DNA of 59,806 nt, from assembly GCA_024644585.1 (NCBI GenBank), contig JAHEHM010000001.1, positions 1 through 59,806 of the forward strand, written 5' to 3'. This document shows positions 1-58,055 of this stretch, piece by piece (within the stretch, counting starts at the first letter, position 1; the number at the start of each line of letters is the position of its first letter). Origin of the DNA: Porticoccaceae bacterium (GTDB lineage: Bacteria; Pseudomonadota; Gammaproteobacteria; Pseudomonadales; Porticoccaceae). Below the pieces are notes generated by a model that was not told the DNA's origin, made no database searches, and saw nothing but the letters and a program-made list of their open reading frames with translations. Both the position numbers and the translations under genes were made by a program.

Positions 1-72
1 GTGCGTTTAGGTCTGCAAAAGTTACAGATCTTGGTTGCACCAGAATTTAGAGAAGAGTTAATAAATGAGTAA
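1..72 (+). CDS. C-terminal tail of probable ECF sigma factor (truncated by window start)
   Basis: Frame 1 is open to TAA at 70-72 (VRLGLQKLQILVAPEFREELINE*), overlapping the start of the ChrR-like ORF by 8 bp; sigma identity inferred mainly from position upstream of chrR. Confidence 0.5.
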   Translation: MRLGLQKLQILVAPEFREELINE

Positions 73-730
73 AGTTATAAACCATCATCCGTCCATTGAG
101 ATGCTTGTCGAGTTTTCGGCAGGGACCTTAGATACTGCTACTTCTATCTGCGTAGCCTCGCACTTACATTTCTGTCCCTGTTGTAGGGCTGAAGTGGCAA
201 GACTTGACCAGGTTGGTGCCCAGTTGATGGCCATCTCTTCTCCTCAAGAAATTGATGACAGCATTTTTGAAGAAGTGATGCGTAAAATCGATGAGGGTCA
301 TACGGAAGAACCAGTTATTGAACCGAAAAAAGGTATTCAAGGCTTCCCTGAGCATATTAATAAGCTCATTCATGATGCTGCAGAAATGCCTATTTGGAAG
401 CGACTCTCTAAGTCGATGGAAGTTGCCAAATTATTTACCGGTCAAAGTAAATATGAAGTGGCTCTGCACAAAATTTGTGCCGGTGGTACTACACCACAGC
501 ATGACCACAGAGGTACCGAATACACAGTAGTTTTAAAAGGCAGTTTTTCTGATGAAAAATCTGTTTATACCGAAGGTGATTTTATAGTTCGTGAGCCTGG
601 TGACATTCATCAGCCCATGGGCGCCAAGAATGGCGAATGTATCTGTTTGTCAGCGCAGGAAGCGCCGATTAAATTAACCAGTCCATTGGGTTTCTTTTTA
701 AACCCATGGCTAAGAGTAAACCCTGCTTAA
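65..730 (+). CDS. chrR: ChrR-type zinc anti-sigma factor with C-terminal cupin domain
   Basis: N-terminal HLHFCPCC zinc-anti-sigma motif; C-terminal cupin HDHRGTEYTVVLKGSFSDE...GDIHQP. Confidence 0.85.
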   Translation: MSKVINHHPSIEMLVEFSAGTLDTATSICVASHLHFCPCCRAEVARLDQVGAQLMAISSPQEIDDSIFEEVMRKIDEGHTEEPVIEPKKGIQGFPEHINKLIHDAAEMPIWKRLSKSMEVAKLFTGQSKYEVALHKICAGGTTPQHDHRGTEYTVVLKGSFSDEKSVYTEGDFIVREPGDIHQPMGAKNGECICLSAQEAPIKLTSPLGFFLNPWLRVNPA

Positions 731-14012: not shown

Positions 14013-14741
14013 CTACCAAGGGATGGGCTTTCCCGCATAATCTAGATAGCTTAACTCACCATCAATTTTTAACTCATCCATGAGCTGAGACAAACAGTCA
14101 GCCACATAACTGGGTTCAAATAACTTACCCTCAGGTACAGTCCCATGAAAGGGTTTCGACATTTCTGAGTTTACAGTGCCGGGATGAAAGGCAATCAGCT
14201 TTACGTTCTTGGCACGACGCGCATATTCAATAGAAAACGTTTTCATCAAACTATTTAGTGCAGCTTTCGACGCTCTGTAACTGTACCAACCGCCCAGACC
14301 GTTATCACCCGTACTTCCAACTCTGGCACTGAAGCAGGCAACCTTGCATTCAACTGCACCCATCACAAGCTTTCTAAGTAGCTTAAGCCATAATGAGGGG
14401 ACAATGGTGTTGGCATAAAAAATAGATTGCATCATTTCTACGCTCATTTCTTCCATGCGCTTTTCAGGAAACATTTTCTCGCCATGGAGAATGCCATGAC
14501 AGATACAAACTTTTGAAAAACTGCCTTTAAACTCTGACAAGTTGTCGACAACCGACTGCATGCTTGGCTCATCATACTGGGTAGAAATCCAGTGTAGTTT
14601 GGGGTGCTCAAATGTCGCAGACGAGCGGCTCACCGCAATCACTCGCCCGATTCGATTGTCATTTAAGAAATTATTAATCAGCGCCTGACCTATAGCGCCA
14701 CTGGCACCTAGCACTAATGCGTTAGAGGAATCAGTTAGCAT
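14013..14741 (-). CDS. SDR family NAD(P)-dependent oxidoreductase
   Basis: LVLGASGAIGQALI, YSYRASKAALN (YxxxK). Confidence 0.9.
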   Translation of the reverse strand: MLTDSSNALVLGASGAIGQALINNFLNDNRIGRVIAVSRSSATFEHPKLHWISTQYDEPSMQSVVDNLSEFKGSFSKVCICHGILHGEKMFPEKRMEEMSVEMMQSIFYANTIVPSLWLKLLRKLVMGAVECKVACFSARVGSTGDNGLGGWYSYRASKAALNSLMKTFSIEYARRAKNVKLIAFHPGTVNSEMSKPFHGTVPEGKLFEPSYVADCLSQLMDELKIDGELSYLDYAGKPIPW

Positions 14742-15133
14742 TTTTCTCTCTCAAGTGAACAGCTTTCACAGCGTGATTTACCGGTAATAAGCCGGGAAAG
14801 GGGATGACGATATTTGGCAAACAACAGATAGACCCAATCAGTAAATATTCGAACGACCGGCCAGCGTAAAATAGCCGTCCAGCGACCCTTACCCACAAGA
14901 GTCCAAGCTTTATGGGTCACATCTAAACCCAAAATAATACTACCATCGGCTAATTGACCATGAAGAATCGCATCAGCTTTGTGTTTATTAATTGCAGGAT
15001 ATTTTTCTTCAAAACCCGATTGATTAATATCCACCAAGTCTATGCTCTGCTCGACATCTAGACTTAACAAATGCTTCATTTCGGACAGGCACAGTGGACA
15101 GCCGCCATCGTAAAAAATTCTAAGTTCTACCAT
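14735..15133 (-). CDS. DCC thiol-disulfide oxidoreductase family protein (DUF393)
   Basis: IFYDGGCPLCLSEM signature. Confidence 0.9.
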   Translation of the reverse strand: MVELRIFYDGGCPLCLSEMKHLLSLDVEQSIDLVDINQSGFEEKYPAINKHKADAILHGQLADGSIILGLDVTHKAWTLVGKGRWTAILRWPVVRIFTDWVYLLFAKYRHPLSRLITGKSRCESCSLEREKC

Positions 15134-15137
15134 TGAT

Positions 15138-15668
15138 TTAAAGATCCCGAATGAGATAAATAAGCACTAGGCTATGGGCGCAAATGACTAACATTGTAAG
15201 TACCAAACGCATACGCCAATATTGAGAATCTCTAGCATCATGATCCAGTGAGCGTTCAGCGATTAACAGACTGCCATAACCGCAGAGTAAAAGTGCCACA
15301 GCAAAAACCATGAGCATAGATGAAATATTTATCAGCAACAGGCTGGCCCAGCCCGAGAGTGCTAACAGGTTACTAAAAATTATCATGCTTCGAGCAATTC
15401 TTTTTTGTGAAAAGTCTCTGCTTTTTGCCCATAAAATTCCAGCAAGAAAACTTAAAATTATTGCGCTATAGGCAATGAATACATAGGGTGCATAGAAACC
15501 GAATAGCGAGGCACTATGAACGCCCACGCCTGAGGCTAGCGCATCGGTCATTTCGACCAGAGGCACCAAAAATGGAATTAAACCTAGGTAACCCAACCAA
15601 AGAGTTAATCGATTCTTGTCAGGCTGTAAGTCGACGGCTGAGGTATCCGTCATAGAATTCTCCATCAA
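15138..15668 (-). CDS. DUF3429-like integral membrane protein
   Basis: Five hydrophobic segments, LTLWLGYLGLIPFLVP and FLAGILWA; operon with DCC and SDR genes. Confidence 0.75.
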   Translation of the reverse strand: MMENSMTDTSAVDLQPDKNRLTLWLGYLGLIPFLVPLVEMTDALASGVGVHSASLFGFYAPYVFIAYSAIILSFLAGILWAKSRDFSQKRIARSMIIFSNLLALSGWASLLLINISSMLMVFAVALLLCGYGSLLIAERSLDHDARDSQYWRMRLVLTMLVICAHSLVLIYLIRDL

Positions 15669-15694: not shown

Positions 15695-15721
15695 TTTACG
15701 CTGTCTTAAAAGCTTTGGTTT
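15695..15721 (-). promoter_or_regulatory. Candidate ECF-type promoter AAACC-N15-GCGTAAA upstream of DUF3429-DCC-SDR
   Basis: Minus strand AAACC AAAGCTTTTAAGACA GCGTAAA, 27 nt from the ORF start; identical motif and spacing at 58029-58055. Confidence 0.6.
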
Positions 15722-15739
15722 GATCTGCTTTGGGAATTG

Positions 15740-15764
15740 AATCCAACCAATTTACCATCACGTA
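15740..15764 (+). promoter_or_regulatory. Weaker candidate ECF-type promoter AATCC-N16-CGTA upstream of CRY-DASH
   Basis: Same -35/-10 geometry as the two better copies, one mismatch in AAACC. Confidence 0.35.
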
Positions 15765-15804
15765 CCTCTAATTCAGCATTGGACAATTTAGTGGATAAAA
15801 GATT

Positions 15805-17133
15805 ATGTCAAAAAAAGGGATTTATTGGTTCACAACTGATTTAAGATTAGATGATAATCCAGCGCTAAAAATGGCTGCTGAAGCCATGGACCAGCTCCTT
15901 TTTGTGTATTCGGTTGATATTCCTGTTCGGCTCTCGCATTTACAAGTGGGGCCTACTATTTCACAAAACCGACAGGTCTTCCTTTCGGAATCGCTACATT
16001 GTTTAAATGAGCAACTTCAAGATTTAGGCCAACACCTAGTGGTTATCGAAAATACTCAGCCTGAAATGGCTCGGCTCATCGATGATCATGGCATTACGCA
16101 TATTTACAGAAATAGCGATCAACATGGCCTTGATAGCGCTGACTGGCTTAAGATCCAAACTCATTATCCACAGATTAATTTTTCCGAAGTCAGTAATAAT
16201 CGGTTATTTAGATTAGAACAATTCCCCTTTGAGCTTGGCGAATTACCCGATAGCTTTTCCAAATTTAGGCGCAAAGCAGAAAAGCTACAAATTGATTCGC
16301 CCCTGTCACCGCCAAACCATTTACCACCCCCAATAACCGATCCCTTACCCTGGCCGCAACTGGGTCAGGCTAGCGAAGCACAGACTCTATTTAAGGGTGG
16401 TGAAATTGCGGGGGTTCGCCATATGGAAACATACTTTCAATCGGACCTACCTAGCACTTACAAACAAACCCGAAATGGGCTTGACGGCATGGACTATTCG
16501 ACCAAATTTAGCCCTTGGCTGGCCCAAGGCTGCCTCTCGGCTCGTCGTATCATACATAGGCTTAATCAATACGAAGACGAGGTTGTGTCTAATGACTCTA
16601 CCTATTGGATTTATTTTGAACTACTCTGGCGTGAATATTTTCAGTGGTATGCAGAAAAACACGGCGAACAGATGATCGCTTTTTCTGGCATCAAAGATCG
16701 ATCCCCCAATACCAGTTTTTATCCTGAGCGTTTTCAAAAGTGGTGCCAAGGCACAACACCCTACCCGATTGTGAATGCTTGTATGCGCCAGCTGAAAGCC
16801 ACTGGCTATATGTCAAATCGTGGCCGCCAACTGGTAGCCAGTTGTTTTGTACACGAACTCTCTTTAGATTGGCGCTATGGCGCAGCCTACATGGAGCAAC
16901 AGCTGGTAGATTTTGATTTGGGATCCAACTGGGGCAATTGGCAGTATCTTGCCGGTGTAGGTGCCGACCCAAGAGGTCATAGACAGTTCGACTTGAACAA
17001 ACAAACGCAAATTTACGATCCTAAACAGCAATTTATTAATCACTGGCAGGGCCATACAGATAATTTTCCTTTGGATTCAACTGACCCCTCTGACTGGCCA
17101 ATTGATCTTAAACCTGCGGAGATTCTTGCTTGA
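15805..17133 (+). CDS. Cryptochrome DASH / ssDNA photolyase
   Basis: IYWFTTDLRLDDNPAL..., GSNWGNWQYLAGVGADPRGHRQFDL. Confidence 0.95.
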   Translation: MSKKGIYWFTTDLRLDDNPALKMAAEAMDQLLFVYSVDIPVRLSHLQVGPTISQNRQVFLSESLHCLNEQLQDLGQHLVVIENTQPEMARLIDDHGITHIYRNSDQHGLDSADWLKIQTHYPQINFSEVSNNRLFRLEQFPFELGELPDSFSKFRRKAEKLQIDSPLSPPNHLPPPITDPLPWPQLGQASEAQTLFKGGEIAGVRHMETYFQSDLPSTYKQTRNGLDGMDYSTKFSPWLAQGCLSARRIIHRLNQYEDEVVSNDSTYWIYFELLWREYFQWYAEKHGEQMIAFSGIKDRSPNTSFYPERFQKWCQGTTPYPIVNACMRQLKATGYMSNRGRQLVASCFVHELSLDWRYGAAYMEQQLVDFDLGSNWGNWQYLAGVGADPRGHRQFDLNKQTQIYDPKQQFINHWQGHTDNFPLDSTDPSDWPIDLKPAEILA

Positions 17134-18686
17134 GTAATTCGCCAAAAGTATTGCGTCTAATCTTAGGCGATCAGCTCAATATCAATCATTCTTGGTACGC
17201 CCAACAAGATGAATCTGTCCTGTATTTAATTGCGGAGCTACATCAGGAATCAAACTATGTGCGCCATCATATTCAAAAGCTGTGCGGTTTTTTTGCTGCT
17301 ATGTCAGAGTTCGCTAATGATCTAAGTAATCTGGGTCATCAGGTGTTGCATCTAACTTTAGATGACACCGCAAAATTTTCTGACCTCAATGCGCTGATTG
17401 CTAAACTATGTGCCCAACATGAGATTGAAGCTTTCGAATATCAGCACCCTGAAGAATTCCGGCTTGCCGAGCAACTCAAATCCCTCGACCTAGGCTCAAA
17501 AACAACCATTAATTGTTTCGACTCAGAGCATTTTTTACTGACTATTGAAGAGCTACCTAAATACTTAAATGCGGGCAAGCACAATCGAATGGAGTCGTTC
17601 TATCGCAAGATGCGCAAACGATTTGAAATTCTTATGGATGGCGACCAACCCCTAGATGGACGTTGGAACTTTGATTCAGAAAATCGACAAAAACTTAAGC
17701 CGGCCGATCTAGATGCTATTCCACAGCCGCTTATTTTTAGTAATGATATCTCTGAAATACTCAAGCGTATTAAACGCCACAATATAGCCAGTATTGGCAA
17801 TGTAGGGCCCTCTCTTATATGGCCCATTAATCGCCAACAAGCACTGCAGCAACTGGATTTTTTCTGCGACCAGTGCTTACCTCTATTTGGGCGCTTTCAA
17901 GACGCGATGACCCATCAGGGTGACCGTAAGTGGAGTCTCTATCATGCTCGAATATCCTTCGCCCTAAACTGCAAAATATTACATCCCTCTGAGGTAGTAC
18001 AGGCCGCTCTGGATAAGTTTTACCGCTCTGACACTGATATAGATATAGCGCAAATAGAAGGCTTTGTTCGCCAAATTATTGGCTGGCGAGAATATATACG
18101 CGGAGTGTATTGGGTCAATATGCCCGCTTACAAATCCCTAAACCATCTTCAAGCAAGCAATGATTTACCTGAGTATTTTTGGACCGGTGAGACAAAAATG
18201 ACCTGTGTAAAACAGGCTGTGGATCAATCATTAGACTACGCCTATGCCCATCATATTCAACGCCTAATGGTAACCGGAAACTTTGCCATGTTGGCCGGCA
18301 TTGACCCAGATCAGGTGGATCAGTGGTATCTTGGCATCTACATCGATGCTATCGAATGGGTTGAACTGCCTAATACTCGAGGCATGAGTCAATTTGCCGA
18401 TGGCGGCTTGATTGCTACTAAACCCTATGCGGCCAGCGGCAGCTATATTAATAAAATGAGCGACTACTGCTCCCAATGCAGTTATAAAGTCAAAGAACGC
18501 GATACTGAATCAGCCTGCCCATTCAATAGCCTGTACTGGAAATTTATGACAGCCAACAAAGCATTGCTTCGCAATAATCCGCGCACCGCTATGGCCTATA
18601 GAAGTTGGGACAAGATGCAACCAGAGATTAAAGAATCGATTCTAAAACGCGGCCAATACTGTCTTGATAACTTGGATTCTTTGTAA
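17130..18686 (+). CDS. FeS-BCP type cryptochrome/photolyase ((6-4) photolyase-like)
   Basis: LRLILGDQLN start; C-terminal YCSQCSYK...ACPFNSLYWKFM and upstream MTCVKQA Cys positions; GNFAMLAGIDP. Confidence 0.94.
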   Translation: MSNSPKVLRLILGDQLNINHSWYAQQDESVLYLIAELHQESNYVRHHIQKLCGFFAAMSEFANDLSNLGHQVLHLTLDDTAKFSDLNALIAKLCAQHEIEAFEYQHPEEFRLAEQLKSLDLGSKTTINCFDSEHFLLTIEELPKYLNAGKHNRMESFYRKMRKRFEILMDGDQPLDGRWNFDSENRQKLKPADLDAIPQPLIFSNDISEILKRIKRHNIASIGNVGPSLIWPINRQQALQQLDFFCDQCLPLFGRFQDAMTHQGDRKWSLYHARISFALNCKILHPSEVVQAALDKFYRSDTDIDIAQIEGFVRQIIGWREYIRGVYWVNMPAYKSLNHLQASNDLPEYFWTGETKMTCVKQAVDQSLDYAYAHHIQRLMVTGNFAMLAGIDPDQVDQWYLGIYIDAIEWVELPNTRGMSQFADGGLIATKPYAASGSYINKMSDYCSQCSYKVKERDTESACPFNSLYWKFMTANKALLRNNPRTAMAYRSWDKMQPEIKESILKRGQYCLDNLDSL

Positions 18687-49952: not shown

Positions 49953-50843
49953 ATGTCTAAACGAGAAGGAAAAATTTTATCCCTAACAGGTACAGATATT
50001 TCTCAGCTAAACCAAGTACAGTTGCAGGACCACTTTAAAAAGTGCCTGGATTCTGGCATTCATGGTATTGGGTTTAGTGCCTTTAGAGAGGGCCAAGAGC
50101 CCGGTGATCAGTTAGACATTGAGCAAATTCAAGAACGCATGGCAATACTTAAACCCCATACTGGCTGGGTGCGTTCATTCTCCTGCTGTTTAGGCAATGA
50201 GCTTATTCCTATGGTTGCAAAACAAAATGGGCTGAAAACCCTCGTTGGTGCATGGCTCGGCGATAACCTTGAAAAAAATGAACTTGAGATTGAAGGACTT
50301 ATTAATTTAGCCAAAAAGGGTTACGTTGATGTCTGCGCAGTAGGCAATGAAGTTCTCTATCGCGACGATCTATCCGAAGAGCAGTTACTTGAATATATTG
50401 CCAGAGTGAAGGAAGCGGTTCCCAATTTGCCAGTAGGCTATGTTGATGCCTACTATGAGTTTGAAGATCGTCCAGCAGTGACTGCAATCTGTGATGTTAT
50501 TCTTGCCAATTGCTACCCATTCTGGGAAGGCTGTCCTATTGAATATTCCTTGCTGTATATGAAAGACATGTACAATAGAACCATAAAGGCTGCCGGCGGT
50601 AAAAAAGTAATTATTACTGAAACAGGCTGGCCCAACCGCGGGCAAAGTTTCCATGGTGCAGTGCCTTCAGAAGAAAATGCCATTCGCTACTTCTTAAACA
50701 GTCAGCAATGGTGTGAATCAGAAGATATTGAAATGTTCTATTTTTCATCCTTTGATGAATCATGGAAAATTGGTGCCGAGGGTGATGTTGGTGCCTACTG
50801 GGGTTTGTGGGATAAAGACGAAAAATTAAAATACTCAAAATAA
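49953..50843 (+). CDS. GH17-like beta-1,3-glucanase, no signal peptide
   Basis: AVGNEVLYRD and IITETGWPNRG motifs. Confidence 0.88.
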   Translation: MSKREGKILSLTGTDISQLNQVQLQDHFKKCLDSGIHGIGFSAFREGQEPGDQLDIEQIQERMAILKPHTGWVRSFSCCLGNELIPMVAKQNGLKTLVGAWLGDNLEKNELEIEGLINLAKKGYVDVCAVGNEVLYRDDLSEEQLLEYIARVKEAVPNLPVGYVDAYYEFEDRPAVTAICDVILANCYPFWEGCPIEYSLLYMKDMYNRTIKAAGGKKVIITETGWPNRGQSFHGAVPSEENAIRYFLNSQQWCESEDIEMFYFSSFDESWKIGAEGDVGAYWGLWDKDEKLKYSK

Positions 50844-50858
50844 AATAAAATAAATAGT

Positions 50859-51770
50859 ATGAATAATAATACCTTACCTTTTGCAAAGGCTATTTGCTAT
50901 TCGGGTTATCGCGATGGACAGAGTCCAGATGGCGGTGAATTTCCTTCCTATCAGCAGGTTAAACAAGATCTACTGATTCTAAAAGATGAGTGGAAGTCAC
51001 TGCGACTTTATGGAAGCGATCAACATTCTGTGACTATTTTAGAAGTCATTGAAAAAGAATGCCTACCCTTTGATGTTATGCTGGGCGCCTACATCACGGC
51101 CGAAGTCAGCAATGATCATTGCCCCTGGGGAGGTCATTATTCTGACGAAGAATTAGCCACTAACAAACAGCATAATCATCAGCAAATCGAGCGACTTATT
51201 CAACTGGCTAACCAGTATCCTCAAATTATTAGCTCAATTTCTATTGGCAATGAAGCTGCTGTCAGTTGGACTGATCATTTAGTGCCCACAGAAAGTCTTG
51301 TTGAATACGCCAAGCAAGCTAAGTCACAGGTAACACAACCGGTTACGTTTTGTGAAAACTATGTGCCCTGGCTCGAACACCTAGGCCCTCTTGCAGAACA
51401 ATTGGATGTTATATCAATCCACACCTACCCTGTCTGGGAATTTAAAAGTATTGATGAAGGCCTTGCCTATACCATTGCCAACTACGAAGCGGTTAAAAGT
51501 GCCTACCCCGATAAACAGATTATTATTACTGAAGCCGGCTGGGCTACCAACTCTAATGGCCGTGGCATTGAAAGCCATAATGTTAATGAAGAATTTCAGC
51601 ATCAGTATTTTCATCAACTCATGGACTGGGCTGAGCAGCAACAGGTATTAGTCTATTTCTTTGAGGCCTTCGATGAAAACTGGAAAGGTTCAAGTGATCC
51701 CCTTGAGCCAGAGAAACATTGGGGCATATACAAAGCCGATAGATCTCCTAAGCTGGTGATGCAAAGCTAA
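50859..51770 (+). CDS. GH17-like beta-1,3-glucanase, no signal peptide
   Basis: SIGNEAAVSW and IITEAGWATNS motifs. Confidence 0.88.
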   Translation: MNNNTLPFAKAICYSGYRDGQSPDGGEFPSYQQVKQDLLILKDEWKSLRLYGSDQHSVTILEVIEKECLPFDVMLGAYITAEVSNDHCPWGGHYSDEELATNKQHNHQQIERLIQLANQYPQIISSISIGNEAAVSWTDHLVPTESLVEYAKQAKSQVTQPVTFCENYVPWLEHLGPLAEQLDVISIHTYPVWEFKSIDEGLAYTIANYEAVKSAYPDKQIIITEAGWATNSNGRGIESHNVNEEFQHQYFHQLMDWAEQQQVLVYFFEAFDENWKGSSDPLEPEKHWGIYKADRSPKLVMQS

Positions 51771-52059
51771 AGAACTCCGCGCACCTCAGTTAACACTCTA
51801 AATCGAATTCAAGTTTGGATGGCTTCGCCTGCACAATCCGATTTCAACTATAATTTTTATCCAAAATTTTTCGTTAAAAGCAGACTAAACTTAAATTAAA
51901 GGCTAATAAAAAAGGACTTTTATAGGCATGGATGCTTTCAACAACCTTATATGAATCCCTTTTTTTCATACCGTCGTAACGAAATTAAGTCAGTTGCTTT
52001 TTATCAGGCATCTAGGCAAAAAAAATATCACAATAATTAAAGGGTTTGAGGGTACTACT

Positions 52060-52614
52060 ATGAATAGACATTTTTATATTAGTAACGATTTAAATGATTT
52101 AGAACAGATTGAATTAGAGTTAGAGCAAGAAGGCATTTCCGCGGCACATTCGCATGTATTAAGCCTTGATGATGCGGAGGTTGCCGCGCATCCCAGTCTT
52201 AACCAAGTCGAAGCTGTTTTGCGGACCGATGTGGTTCACAGTACCAAAGTAGGTGCGGTAGTCGGAGTTATTGCTGCAACCTTAATGATCTATGTTGTCT
52301 CGTTAATGGGTTGGGCAGAGAAGGCTACTTGGGTACCATTTGTCTTTCTAGCCATTGCCATGTTGGGCTTTTTTACCTGGGAGTTTGGTTTTATTGGCAT
52401 TCAGCGAAAAAATAATCGATTTGCGCGCTTTGAAAAAGCACTTAAACGAGGAAAACATATTTTCTTTGTCGATATAGAATCAGAGAACGAAAGCATATTA
52501 TCAAAAATACTCAAAAAACATCCCAAGCTAAAACGCGCTGGTGACGGCCCTTCAGTCCCCCAGTGGTTCGTTAGCTTACAGGAGAGATTTGGTGTTTTTA
52601 ATAGGTCTTTTTAA
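52060..52614 (+). CDS. Uncharacterised two-TM membrane protein (start set to internal Met of ORF 51994-52614)
   Basis: Hydrophobic pair VGAVVGVIAATLMIYVVSLMGW and WVPFVFLAIAMLGFFTWEF; no catalytic motif recognised. Confidence 0.75.
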   Translation: MNRHFYISNDLNDLEQIELELEQEGISAAHSHVLSLDDAEVAAHPSLNQVEAVLRTDVVHSTKVGAVVGVIAATLMIYVVSLMGWAEKATWVPFVFLAIAMLGFFTWEFGFIGIQRKNNRFARFEKALKRGKHIFFVDIESENESILSKILKKHPKLKRAGDGPSVPQWFVSLQERFGVFNRSF

Positions 52615-52714: not shown

Positions 52715-54025
52715 CTACTTTGCTATACCACGATCCCAATCAATTCTATTCTTGGGCTTAATAAACACCAAGTGGGCATTACCCAACACCCGCTCCAAAA
52801 ATCCCGCCTCGCAATAACAAAGATAAAAATCCCACATAGCAATAAACTGCTGAGAGTATCCTAACGTCTTAATCGGCTCGATATTATCAAAAAAACGCTG
52901 ACGCCAATCGCGCAGCGTAGTCGCATAGTGCGGACCAATATCTTCCAACTGAAACAGTCGCATATCTGTTGACGACTTAACTGAACTGGTAATTGCACTA
53001 ACGGATGGAATAAATCCCCCAGGAAAGATAAATCGCTGAATAAAATCTACAGACTTAATCGCTTGATCATAATATTGATCAGCAATCGTAATCGATTGAA
53101 TTAGCATAATCCCTTCCGGCTTGAGAAGAGAGCTACATTTAGCAAAGTAAGTATCAAGATACTGATGTCCCACGGCTTCAATCATTTCAATGGAAACCAA
53201 CTTGTCATAGGTGCCCTGCAGGTCTCGGTAATCTTCCATCAAAAGAGTAATTTTATCTTCTAAACCGGCTTCAATAATGCGCCGCTGTGCCCAATCATGC
53301 TGTTGTTGAGAAATAGTCGTAGTGGTGACCTTACAACCATAATTTTGCGCGGCATAGAGCGCAAAACCACCCCAACCGGTGCCAATTTCAATCACATGAT
53401 CGGATTCATTGAGCTGTAATTTGTCACAGATACGCTGTAATTTAGCCAGAGATGCCTGCTCTAAACTGGTTTTCTCATCGGGATAATAGGCGCAGGAATA
53501 CATCATGGTAGGGTCGAGGAAAAGCTCGAACATCTCATTGCCTAAATCATAATGCGCCTCAATATTGCGGCGACTACCCGCCTGACTATTGCGATTTAAC
53601 CAATGGGCAATGCGCAGAAAAGCATTTTTGAACAGCGAAAGATTAGCTTCCATCTGATCAAGAATATGCCGATTTCCAATCATAATGCGTATTAAATCTG
53701 TTAAATTGCTGCAGCTCCAATAGCCCTGCATATAGGCCTCACCGGCAGCCACAGTGCCACCAAAAGCAATATCCGAGTAAAACCTTTGATCGGTTACATT
53801 AAGGGTAACAGTCAACGGGTTAGCCTCATCAGGACAACCAAAGCTATGGCTTCCGTTAGAATCAATCAGTTGAATCTCACCTACTTCTAATTTTTCAAGT
53901 TTTGCGATCAACAGGCTTCGGCACCAACGATCAATTGAGCGGGTTGAAGCATTTGGAACCTGTGCAGACATATTTTTACTCACTTTTGTCATCCAAATTT
54001 TTATTATTCTCATGGGCGTGTCCAA
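52715..54025 (-). CDS. cfa: Cyclopropane-fatty-acyl-phospholipid synthase family protein
   Basis: NIEAHYDLGNEMFELFLDPTMMYSCAYY, VIEIGTGWGGFALYAA. Confidence 0.94.
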   Translation of the reverse strand: MDTPMRIIKIWMTKVSKNMSAQVPNASTRSIDRWCRSLLIAKLEKLEVGEIQLIDSNGSHSFGCPDEANPLTVTLNVTDQRFYSDIAFGGTVAAGEAYMQGYWSCSNLTDLIRIMIGNRHILDQMEANLSLFKNAFLRIAHWLNRNSQAGSRRNIEAHYDLGNEMFELFLDPTMMYSCAYYPDEKTSLEQASLAKLQRICDKLQLNESDHVIEIGTGWGGFALYAAQNYGCKVTTTTISQQQHDWAQRRIIEAGLEDKITLLMEDYRDLQGTYDKLVSIEMIEAVGHQYLDTYFAKCSSLLKPEGIMLIQSITIADQYYDQAIKSVDFIQRFIFPGGFIPSVSAITSSVKSSTDMRLFQLEDIGPHYATTLRDWRQRFFDNIEPIKTLGYSQQFIAMWDFYLCYCEAGFLERVLGNAHLVFIKPKNRIDWDRGIAK

Positions 54026-54767
54026 TAAATGGAACGCCTTTCATCCATATTTTTAGCGCTTGCCAGTAAATCCCTGCGGTGACCTTCACCGACATTAAGG
54101 GTATCTTAATTAACTGCACAGCTAAAGTTTTACCATTGATCGGTTGAGCCTTTAAACTCAGGGCCACATCAAAGACTTTAGTGCCCTGCCGATGATTTTC
54201 CATTTTCACTATACAGCCCTCATCAGGCGGTGAAAATTCAAACTTATATTCCATATCCAATGGCATAAAAGGCGACACAGTAAACGCTTTTGACGTCTTA
54301 TAATATAGGTGATTTTGCTTATCCGAGTCAGACAGTGTTTTTTCATTATCCGCTAGCACATAACAGTACATCTCACCCCAAGGCGTATTGGTTACCTCGG
54401 CTACAATCGCTTCAATCGTTTGCCCATCGGGCTGATAGCAATAATAAAAACTTACCGGATTAGATTTATAAAAGAAATAACGAAGATTGGTTAACAGCCT
54501 AATAGGACCCTCAGGTCTTTTTCCGGTACGCTCACAAACCAAGTCTCTAACCGATTCAGCTAAGGCTTGGGATTTATTGCCTAGGTGATCCTCACGTTTA
54601 AACCAAGCAAAATTTGCCTTGCCAGTAGACCACAGCCAAAATTGATTAAATACCGTCTCTAGTTCATCCAAATCTAGATAGAGCATAAATACTTTGTAGG
54701 AAAATTGATTAACAGCCGGCAAGTGCCTACAGTGACCTAGATCTCCACTGTAAAGCCGGCTTTTCAT
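53976..54767 (-). CDS. DUF1365 family protein
   Basis: LYSGDLGHCRHLPAVNQFSYKVFMLYLDLDEL; NPVSFYYCY. Confidence 0.92.
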   Translation of the reverse strand: MKSRLYSGDLGHCRHLPAVNQFSYKVFMLYLDLDELETVFNQFWLWSTGKANFAWFKREDHLGNKSQALAESVRDLVCERTGKRPEGPIRLLTNLRYFFYKSNPVSFYYCYQPDGQTIEAIVAEVTNTPWGEMYCYVLADNEKTLSDSDKQNHLYYKTSKAFTVSPFMPLDMEYKFEFSPPDEGCIVKMENHRQGTKVFDVALSLKAQPINGKTLAVQLIKIPLMSVKVTAGIYWQALKIWMKGVPFIGHAHENNKNLDDKSE

Positions 54768-56005
54768 CAGAGGTCTCGCTTAAATTTTTCAATGGCATTC
54801 AATGCGCTGACTACGCCGTCCTCATGAAAGCCATAACGCCAATAGGCGCCACAAAAATACAGCCTATCGGTATTTATTTCGGACTGTCTTGCCTGAGCCG
54901 CCACTGATTCTTGAGTGTAAATAGGATGATGATACTGCAGGCGCTTTAAGACCTTGGTTTGATCAATCGCATTAGCATTATTCAGGGTGACACAGAAGGT
55001 TTGCTCCGAGTCTAAGCCCTGCAAAATATTCATATTATAGGTGACCGGCACCTGCCCTTGGTCGTTCTCTAATAAATGATAATTCCATGCCGCCCATGCG
55101 GTTTTTCTTTTCGGCAAAATAGAGGCATCGGTATGCAGTAGCACTTCATTTTCTTGATATTTAATCGCCCCTAACACCTGCTGTTCCGAAGCTGTGGGCT
55201 GCTCTAGAAGACGTAAGGCCTGATCGCTGTGACAGGCAAAAAATACCGCATCATAGCTTTCTTCACCCTGGGCACTGGTCACAATCACTGCCTCTTTTTC
55301 ACGCTTGACCCCGGTAACTGGTGCAGAGAGTCTAATTTTGTCTTTAAAAGAGGCTGTTAGCGCAGTGACATAGGTCTTTGAGCCGCCCTTGATAACATAC
55401 CAGTCAGGGCGGTTAGTGACGCTCAGTAACCCATGATTATGGAAAAATTGAATCAGGTAACGCGCTGGGAATTGGTACATCAGATTTAGATCTGCAGACC
55501 AAACCGCGGCGGCCATGGGGACTAAATAATAATCAATAAATGTTTGACTGAATTTTTCTCGTTTTAAATATTCACCCAGACTAATATCATCAGATTCGTC
55601 TTCAAGAAGATCAGTTGCCTGACGGTTGAACCTTAGAATATCCAAGATCATACGCCAAAATGAAGGGCGGAAAATATTGCGTCGCTGGGCAAATAAGCTA
55701 TTGATGGTTGAGCCCATATATTCAAGGCCAGTCTTTTCACACTTGACCCCAAAACTCATTGCCGATAGCTGCTCTTTAACGCTCAGCTCTTTTAAAAGAC
55801 CGGTAAAGTTTGGGTAGGTTTTATAATTAAAAACAATAAACCCAGTGTCTACTGAGTATGACTTACCTTCTAGCTCAATATTATGGGTGTGAGTATGGCC
55901 ACCCAGATAATCGTTGGCTTCAAAAACAGTAATATCATGATCTTTATTCAAATGGTAAGCGGCAACATTACCTGATATACCTGTTCCAATAATGGCTATT
56001 TTCAT
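54767..56005 (-). CDS. NAD/FAD-binding amine oxidase-like oxidoreductase
   Basis: KIAIIGTGISGNVAAYHLNKDHDITVFEANDYLGGHTHT; CGAYWRYGFHEDG. Confidence 0.94.
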   Translation of the reverse strand: MKIAIIGTGISGNVAAYHLNKDHDITVFEANDYLGGHTHTHNIELEGKSYSVDTGFIVFNYKTYPNFTGLLKELSVKEQLSAMSFGVKCEKTGLEYMGSTINSLFAQRRNIFRPSFWRMILDILRFNRQATDLLEDESDDISLGEYLKREKFSQTFIDYYLVPMAAAVWSADLNLMYQFPARYLIQFFHNHGLLSVTNRPDWYVIKGGSKTYVTALTASFKDKIRLSAPVTGVKREKEAVIVTSAQGEESYDAVFFACHSDQALRLLEQPTASEQQVLGAIKYQENEVLLHTDASILPKRKTAWAAWNYHLLENDQGQVPVTYNMNILQGLDSEQTFCVTLNNANAIDQTKVLKRLQYHHPIYTQESVAAQARQSEINTDRLYFCGAYWRYGFHEDGVVSALNAIEKFKRDL

Positions 56006-56019
56006 GCTGTTTCTTATTG

Positions 56020-56553
56020 TTAGTGACTCAAGGGTAGCTTGTGAGATGCAAGCTCCAGTTGATTGATATCATATCCTATAGAAGCCACGAATTGGGTTAA
56101 TTTAGAGAGCATTTCTTCAGTAATTTCAGGGTTTCTGGCCATTATCCACACATAATCTCGTTTATTTCGGCCAATCACCGTATATTGATATTTACTATCA
56201 AGATAAACAATTCGATAATCTGCCTTTATAGGCCATAAAAACTGCATGCCCCACTCAGCATTGGTCTCGGTATTTTTAACGAAACCCCTCGGATAATAGA
56301 CCTTTTTTTCGCCCTCTAGACTATCCGCATTAAAACTAAAGGTGGTGGCAATACTGCCATCGGTATCGAGGGCATAAGATTCTATGGGGTTGTAAGCGTT
56401 TTTCTCTAAAAAGGTAGGGATATTGGCAATTACGTACCAATCGCCCATAAATCGCTGTAAATCCACATAATCAACGGTTTCTAGAGGCTTTTGGCTCTGA
56501 CAGCCACTGAGCAAACAGAATGCAATAACTGCTAGCAAGTTTCTTAGCCACAT
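56020..56553 (-). CDS. blc: Blc-type lipocalin lipoprotein
   Basis: Lipobox CLLSGC; FMGDWYVIANIPTFLEKN. Confidence 0.93.
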   Translation of the reverse strand: MWLRNLLAVIAFCLLSGCQSQKPLETVDYVDLQRFMGDWYVIANIPTFLEKNAYNPIESYALDTDGSIATTFSFNADSLEGEKKVYYPRGFVKNTETNAEWGMQFLWPIKADYRIVYLDSKYQYTVIGRNKRDYVWIMARNPEITEEMLSKLTQFVASIGYDINQLELASHKLPLSH

Positions 56554-56645
56554 AATTTAACTCCAAGTGATGCCACTGTTAGACTTTAGCTCTAATTTAA
56601 AGTAAAAATCAGAGGACTGCCAATGAAATTGGGCGATAATTGAGG

Positions 56646-57470
56646 CTAGATATCGATTACTTTTCTAAGAGGTTTACCGGGGATTAGCGTATTAGTGGTT
56701 TTAATATAGGCCTGATAATCCGGTCTGCGATCGGTAATACCCTGCTCCATATTGCCCACTCCAGAGAATTTAACCAATAAGTAGGTCATCACCAATGGCG
56801 CCACTAGTATCCATAGGGAGTCGGTTGGCACCGCATATAGACACCAGCCCCACCAAACACAGAGCTCACCAAAGTAGTTAGGGTGACGTGAATAACGCCA
56901 AAGACCGGTATTAAGAGTCGAACCCGGGGTAACCAGCTTGCGATTAAAGCTATGTAACTGATGGTCAGCAACAGACTCATAGATAAAACCAAATAACCAG
57001 ATAGCAGCGCCTAGACTATGCCAGAATGTCCAATTATTTTGCTGCTCAATGCTCATATCAAACACTGGCACAAAACTCACACTCATGATCCATGCCACAG
57101 TGGCTTGGAAGATAAAAATTAGGTATAAACTTTTGAAGGTAAAGTTAGGCGAGTTTCTTTTTCGAATCACCTGATAGCGCCTATCTTCGGGCTTATTATG
57201 TCCGCGCACCATTAAAAAATAGGCCAGCCGCAGCCCCCAAATAACCACCATAAGTAACATGCCCATACCCACCGGGCCTAATGAGCCAGATAAATCGGAT
57301 AAATAGCTGTATGTTGCCACCGCTAACAGGGTTAATAATGACCAGATATAGTCAACAATACTGACATCCTGCAACCAGGTACTAAACACCCAGGTCACTA
57401 CTGCCAGCAACATCAATGCCTGAAAGCTCAGAATCAAAAAATCGGTGTTTAAGATAAATAACCCACTCAT
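56646..57470 (-). CDS. DUF1295 family membrane protein (steroid 5-alpha-reductase-like)
   Basis: GLWRYSRHPNYFGELCVWWGWCLYA. Confidence 0.93.
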   Translation of the reverse strand: MSGLFILNTDFLILSFQALMLLAVVTWVFSTWLQDVSIVDYIWSLLTLLAVATYSYLSDLSGSLGPVGMGMLLMVVIWGLRLAYFLMVRGHNKPEDRRYQVIRKRNSPNFTFKSLYLIFIFQATVAWIMSVSFVPVFDMSIEQQNNWTFWHSLGAAIWLFGFIYESVADHQLHSFNRKLVTPGSTLNTGLWRYSRHPNYFGELCVWWGWCLYAVPTDSLWILVAPLVMTYLLVKFSGVGNMEQGITDRRPDYQAYIKTTNTLIPGKPLRKVIDI

Positions 57471-58000
57471 CTGGCATTCTCCTGGGAATTAAAATTATGG
57501 TTAATACGTTCTGCTATCCACAGTAATAGTGGCATCAGCAGTCCCCATCCAATAGCTAGGGTAATCATAGATAGGGTTGAATCCAAAAACACAACCGCGC
57601 CTAATTTTTCACCCGCAACAAAAGCAAGGGGTCCAAAAATTGCCCCCATAAATACCGCTAACACCCAATGACCCTTGAGCCAACCCATGGACAAATTAAT
57701 AGTAGTGGCAAACAGCGCCCACATCATAATCAACCAAGTAGGGGCCCAAAATAGGGCTTCAGGATGACTCGGATAATGAAGGATATTTAAGCTTAGTACC
57801 CAGGTTTCCCAAAGTAAGCCGATGACTGTCGCTGCCAATACAAGCTTGAGCTCCTTACGCGAATCGCCTTGATTAACCACATGGTAAATAACAATGCCTA
57901 GGGCAATGATCATACCCAAAAGCTCCTTATCGTTGGCCGCGCCCAATACACAGGCAAACCAACCCACTTGAAACCCTATAAAATTAACCAATAAAGCCAT
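57467..58000 (-). CDS. DUF2878 family membrane protein
   Basis: LVNFIGFQVGWFACVLGA start, multiple TM segments, operon context. Confidence 0.87.
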   Translation of the reverse strand: MALLVNFIGFQVGWFACVLGAANDKELLGMIIALGIVIYHVVNQGDSRKELKLVLAATVIGLLWETWVLSLNILHYPSHPEALFWAPTWLIMMWALFATTINLSMGWLKGHWVLAVFMGAIFGPLAFVAGEKLGAVVFLDSTLSMITLAIGWGLLMPLLLWIAERINHNFNSQENAR

Positions 58001-58028: not shown

Positions 58029-58055
58029 TTTACGCCGAGTTTTTAGAAAAGGTTT
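58029..58055 (-). promoter_or_regulatory. Candidate ECF-type promoter AAACC-N15-GCGTAAA upstream of DUF2878-...-CFA operon
   Basis: Minus strand AAACC TTTTCTAAAAACTCG GCGTAAA, 29 nt from the ATG; matches 15695-15721. Confidence 0.6.

Follow-up and report, generated by a model that had tools for sequence, protein, structure and literature searches.

The window analysed here, a single contig (C54) of 59,806 nucleotides, opens within the 3′ end of an rpoE gene that is followed by chrR. Its first 121 bases recur without a mismatch at the end of contig C44, where the missing sigma gene is found, and the two contigs are probably adjacent, with the assembly break falling within the end of rpoE. The initial annotation had placed the tail of an ECF sigma gene and a ChrR gene at this position; the ChrR call is upheld, and the sigma gene could be recovered from C44. 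The sigma product, of 219 amino acids, has Rhodobacter sphaeroides RpoE as its best PDB match (2q1z_A, E = 5e-34; the next match has 9e-14), and 'ECF11-type' is used below for this likeness rather than for a formal ECF group assigned by profile; an NCBIfam search with the sigma returned no specific equivalog above its cut-off. The only PDB relatives of the ChrR protein are R. sphaeroides ChrR structures, and its HxxxCxxC and HxHxxxE...H zinc ligands align to 2z2s_B. It is 93% identical to the ChrR of a SAR92 metagenome-assembled genome (MAG), and named relatives place the host in the SAR92 clade/Porticoccaceae. One other genome, G050, apparently holds two full-length ChrR genes (on its contigs C14 and C1), with 57% and 55% identity to that of the window.

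The predicted targets of this sigma and their candidate promoters are collected in Table 1. All of the other gene calls made beforehand in the two minus-strand operons (DUF3429, DCC1-like, SDR, DUF2878, DUF1295, lipocalin, FAD amine oxidase, DUF1365 and CFA/CMAS) were confirmed. The operon that runs from DUF2878 to CFA/CMAS possibly directs furan fatty acid synthesis, a role that we propose because the R. sphaeroides DUF1365 protein, RSP1090, is UfaO and the amine oxidase RSP1091 is UfaD, both of which act in furan fatty acid synthesis in that organism.

Table 1. The rpoE-chrR locus, candidate promoters and predicted targets (coordinates are those of the window unless a contig is named).
Feature	Position	Strand	Basis or remark
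rpoE 3′ end (ECF11-type sigma)	1..69	+	remainder on contig C44, 121-base overlap
chrR, zinc-binding cupin anti-sigma factor	65..730	+	TIGR02451, 165.8 bits vs cut-off 124.5
rpoE promoter, TGATCT-N16-CGTAAA	C44:744-771	-	one of 27 rpoE upstream regions examined
Candidate promoter of DUF3429-DCC-SDR operon, CAAACC-N16-CGTAAA	15695..15722	-	exact match, matrix rank 3-4
Candidate divergent promoter of phr/DPRP operon, GAATCC-N16-CGTACC	15739..15766	+	matrix rank 8-9
Candidate promoter of 184-aa membrane-protein gene, GAATCC-N16-CGTAAC	51953..51980	+	matrix rank 2
Candidate promoter of DUF2878-...-CFA operon, TAAACC-N16-CGTAAA	58029..58056	-	exact match, matrix rank 1
Predicted target operon: DUF3429 (15138-15653), DCC1-like (14735-15133), SDR (14013-14741)	14013..15653	-	Pfam
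Predicted target operon: DNA photolyase (15805-17133), DPRP photolyase-related protein (17130-18686)	15805..18686	+	Pfam
Predicted target operon: DUF2878, DUF1295, lipocalin, FAD amine oxidase, DUF1365, CFA/CMAS	52715..58000	-	Pfam
184-aa predicted membrane protein, candidate lineage-specific target	52060..52614	+	no confident Pfam match

The string AAACC-N15-GCGTAAA, singled out in the initial annotation, does occur without mismatch at 15695-15721 and 58029-58055 of the minus strand, as that annotation states, with no third exact copy in the window; the whole genome (1,406,120 bases in 66 contigs) holds three. The accompanying claim of rarity is also correct, in that an order-1 Markov model predicts 0.20 exact matches per 1.41-Mb genome and 0.0085 per window, although the latter value overstates the significance since the motif was selected after inspection. 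As it was picked by eye, the independent evidence comes from conservation and from a matrix built without the window. Genome-wide enrichment gave a mixed picture: each of the three exact copies is followed by a gene start within about 120 nt, whereas at one mismatch or fewer the string occurs 10 times in the genome against 10 times for its reversed control, an absence of excess that makes it, as worded, a poor genome-wide classifier. The element that is conserved is nnAWCC-N16-CGTA(A), and the G preceding CGTAAA is not part of it. Both copies had been put at promoter distance, 29 and 27 nt from their genes; the gap to DUF2878 is 28 nt, and that to DUF3429 is 41 nt, given that the ATG at 15653, with GGAG upstream, is a more likely start than the TTG at 15668. 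Two looser patterns, RWWCY-N16-CGTAA and RAWCY-N16-CGTAA, find 21 and 16 matches in the genome, most of which, among those inspected, sit within coding sequence in a chance-like manner and were rejected as promoters; the reversed-pattern control for these patterns is not composition-matched and did not serve as a rate. A match before sdhC was set aside because it contains TATAAT.

The promoters of rpoE itself provided a reference. YRATCY-N16-CGTA is found at exactly one site in each of 27 rpoE upstream regions, including that of the window's own genome (TGATCT-TAATTTCTAATTAGGG-CGTAAA), and in nearly all of them it lies about 80 nt before the start of the sigma gene. A position matrix was made from the rpoE promoters of the 26 other genomes, with no site from the window, and about 119,500 window positions were ranked with it (Table 1). 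On score alone the result is modest, as positions scoring as well as the two motif sites number 0.4 and 1.4 in simulated windows. When the matrix is made without the subclade described below, each of the top three matches has a gene in the correct orientation starting no more than 110 nt downstream, a zone that comprises 4.6% of positions, so that three of three would arise by chance with a probability of about 1e-4. Beyond the noted pair, the divergent phr site, the site before the 184-aa gene and a third exact copy before rpoH are further candidates. A search of 50 genus genomes for TGATCC-N16-CGTAA gave 37 occurrences, 19 of them at rpoE and 3 at DUF2878 when positions were compared by hand.

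The orthologous genes of relatives retain these sites. Seven genomes, the window's own (G000) together with G021, G030, G041, G042, G055 and G060, form a monophyletic subclade (100/99 support in an RpoH tree), and six of them (G000, G030, G042, G041, G055 and G021) have (T/C)AAACC-N16-CGTA upstream of DUF2878. Outside the subclade the same spacing is seen there with TGATCC (G039, G058, G059), TGATCT (G035) or TGATCG (G050), and the TGATCC of the first three occupies the position that AAACC has in the subclade. Upstream of DUF3429, nnAWCY-N16-CGTA is present in all 30 genomes compared, in one locus (L083) as the second-best match only; the five subclade genomes that have the gene show CAAACC or AAAACC, and the other 25 show nnATCY, several of these 25 sites being individually weak. 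Most relatives have the same -35/-10 geometry upstream of phr, with ATCC in the subclade. The FAD-oxidase gene, which lies inside the operon, was used as a negative control; at 29 of its 30 loci no convincing site precedes it. In G041, AAACC-N16-CGTAA also stands before a separate DUF1295 gene (L228:351-376, contig C14 of that genome), as a second copy of the promoter there. A coincidental match of the 12 common bases, caught by eye, is an extremely improbable reading: its appeal lies in the post-inspection choice of the motif and in near-matches that are no commoner than the control, but both orthologous operons keep the site across the genus and the independently derived matrix agrees.

The 184-aa protein has homologs in 19 of the 50 genus genomes. 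(T/G)AATCC-N16-CGTA is kept before its gene in six subclade genomes, and the motif is absent before the 12 homologs outside the subclade. Two adjacent genes that match glycosyl hydrolase family 17 (49953-51770 in the window) adjoin this gene in several subclade genomes.

The genome also encodes a second ECF-like sigma, on contig C63, which is probably the envelope-stress RpoE, and many ECF sigmas recognise a -35 element that contains AAC; both points could be taken to assign the sites to that sigma or to another regulator. We give this assignment a negligible probability, as the RpoE/ChrR group's TGATCC form is found at the orthologous sites, the set of target genes agrees with the core ECF11 regulon as set out in the part of PMC5507510 used here, and envelope-stress RpoE promoters, in the corresponding part of PMC4336711, resemble GAACTT-16/17-TCnnA and not AWCC-N16-CGTA. 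We suggest instead that RpoE, the ECF11-type sigma encoded across the left edge of the window, very probably uses the two motifs as promoters. The view of the two sites as candidate targets of the neighbouring sigma/ChrR pair is strengthened both by the matrix from the relatives' rpoE promoters and by conservation at orthologous operons, and the photo-oxidative type of the regulon is supported by targets that match the known core ECF11 regulon and by a sigma and ChrR that match the R. sphaeroides pair. Site positions, conservation, gene content and the identity of sigma and ChrR are direct readings of the DNA; together they point to two genuine and conserved promoters that have drifted within a regulon of a known type.

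The form of this drift bears on whether the sigma reads a different -35 element. Both motif sites have the CGTA -10 element at 16-nt spacing and lack the canonical TGATCC -35, from which TAAACC departs by two mismatches and CAAACC by three. The initial annotation had found the motif unlike the TGATC type and suggested that specificity may differ, a suggestion that is not supported in view of the genome's own TGATCT-N16-CGTAAA at rpoE, of GAATCC-N16-CGTA at phr and of TGATCC before DUF2878 in relatives. A stronger version, in which the specificity of the sigma changed in this lineage and AAACC is now the preferred -35, could draw on the A that the seven-genome clade has at -35 position 4 before DUF2878 and DUF3429, where relatives have T, and on two changes private to the recognition helix of the same subclade's sigmas, A204G and M208L. 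We consider it very unlikely and reject it because rpoE (TGATCT), phr (AATCC) and the 184-aa gene (TAATCC or GAATCC) keep T at position 4 in the same genomes. In addition, the residues aligned with the known contacts of E. coli sigma-E are unchanged in the subclade, and a single branch provides no statistical power. Since relatives beyond the subclade show ATC at the orthologous sites, we read AAACC as a degenerate, apparently tolerated and lineage-specific variant of the canonical TGATCC -35 rather than as a canonical site, one that has been fixed at two operons in one SAR92-type subclade; we take it to have arisen by drift and to be probably weaker than TGATCC.

The third exact copy of the motif (G000:C42:13865-13891; L001:1501-1527) reaches into the 3′ end of ftsX and is separated from rpoH by 92 nt. 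Its AAACC part encodes the FtsX C-terminus, so that only the CGTA half is informative, and this half is kept in six of the seven subclade genomes. In the ftsX-rpoH gap of other genus members, some have TGAGCY followed by CGTA 16 or 17 nt later, and many have no such site. A link between rpoH and the RpoE/ChrR sigma is attractive, as RpoH-type sigmas also take part in the singlet-oxygen response of R. sphaeroides, and is only suggestive here. It is conceivable, though we think it unlikely, that the regulon of this small-genome subclade is split, with an AAACC class (the putative furan-fatty-acid and DUF3429 operons, perhaps rpoH) that co-evolved with A204G/M208L and differs in strength or threshold from an ATC class (rpoE, phr and the 184-aa protein), and that singlet-oxygen stress acts directly on rpoH.

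By analogy with the family, from which binding, transcription and the stress signal are all extrapolated, ChrR would hold RpoE in unstressed cells, and singlet oxygen or organic peroxides would free it, as shown in R. sphaeroides. The freed RpoE would direct RNA polymerase to begin transcription shortly after CGTAA at the predicted targets, namely rpoE-chrR, the photolyase operon, DUF3429-DCC-SDR, the putative furan-fatty-acid/CFA operon, the lineage-specific membrane protein and perhaps rpoH. Such a scheme would give the largely uncultured SAR92-type bacteria of the surface ocean a concrete and testable photo-oxidative stress regulon. It would also be a case in which one lineage has let core ECF11-type promoters drift and has kept a canonical promoter for the sigma itself, and the same change at two operons would amount to a small natural experiment on how far an ECF sigma tolerates departures in the -35 element.

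No work dealing directly with this regulon emerged from the literature on SAR92 sigma factors and photolyase, and the comparison is with better-known systems, in each case with the part of the published account used here. The core ECF11 regulon comprises rpoE-chrR, phr, an SDR, an amine oxidase, RSP1090 and a CFA-type methylase (PMC5507510), and the operon content of the window fits it. The likeness to R. sphaeroides RpoE-ChrR extends from sigma and ChrR homology to the core targets, the DUF1365 gene included; the differences are another operon arrangement, the added DUF2878, DUF1295, lipocalin and DUF3429-DCC genes and the AAACC -35 at two operons. DUF2878, DUF1295, lipocalin and DUF3429-DCC are not named as regulon members in the portions of the ECF11 literature compared, and we do not claim new membership for them. 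The N16 spacing is shared with Shewanella oneidensis RpoE2-ChrR, where the promoter is TGATCC-N16-CGTA, rpoE2 has an autopromoter, and comparable targets include a phr-related gene with an SDR and a ybgA-phrB-cfa operon; unlike here, the promoters listed in that part of the report have TGATCC or TGATCA and none has AAACC (PMC4336711). The SigmaE/ChrR blue-light regulon of Vibrio cholerae is similar in its TGATC-N16-18-CGTAW promoter and in the induction of photolyases/cryptochromes and a CFA synthase, with a MerR regulator contributing as well (PMC5241685). Pseudomonas syringae PSPTO_1043/1042 has the same spacing in its ChIP-seq consensus, TGATCC-N16-CGTA, and degenerate CAAACC, CAAACT and GAAAC sites belong to its weaker or weakly induced targets, with CAAACC and CAAACT types at targets of weak or no significant induction; PSPTO_2853, the closest published CAAACC site, is bound by the sigma and not significantly induced (PMC5507510). 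Going by the same portion of that report, such degenerate sites are rare across P. syringae strains, whereas in the subclade described here they are fixed at two operons that are probably of the core type.
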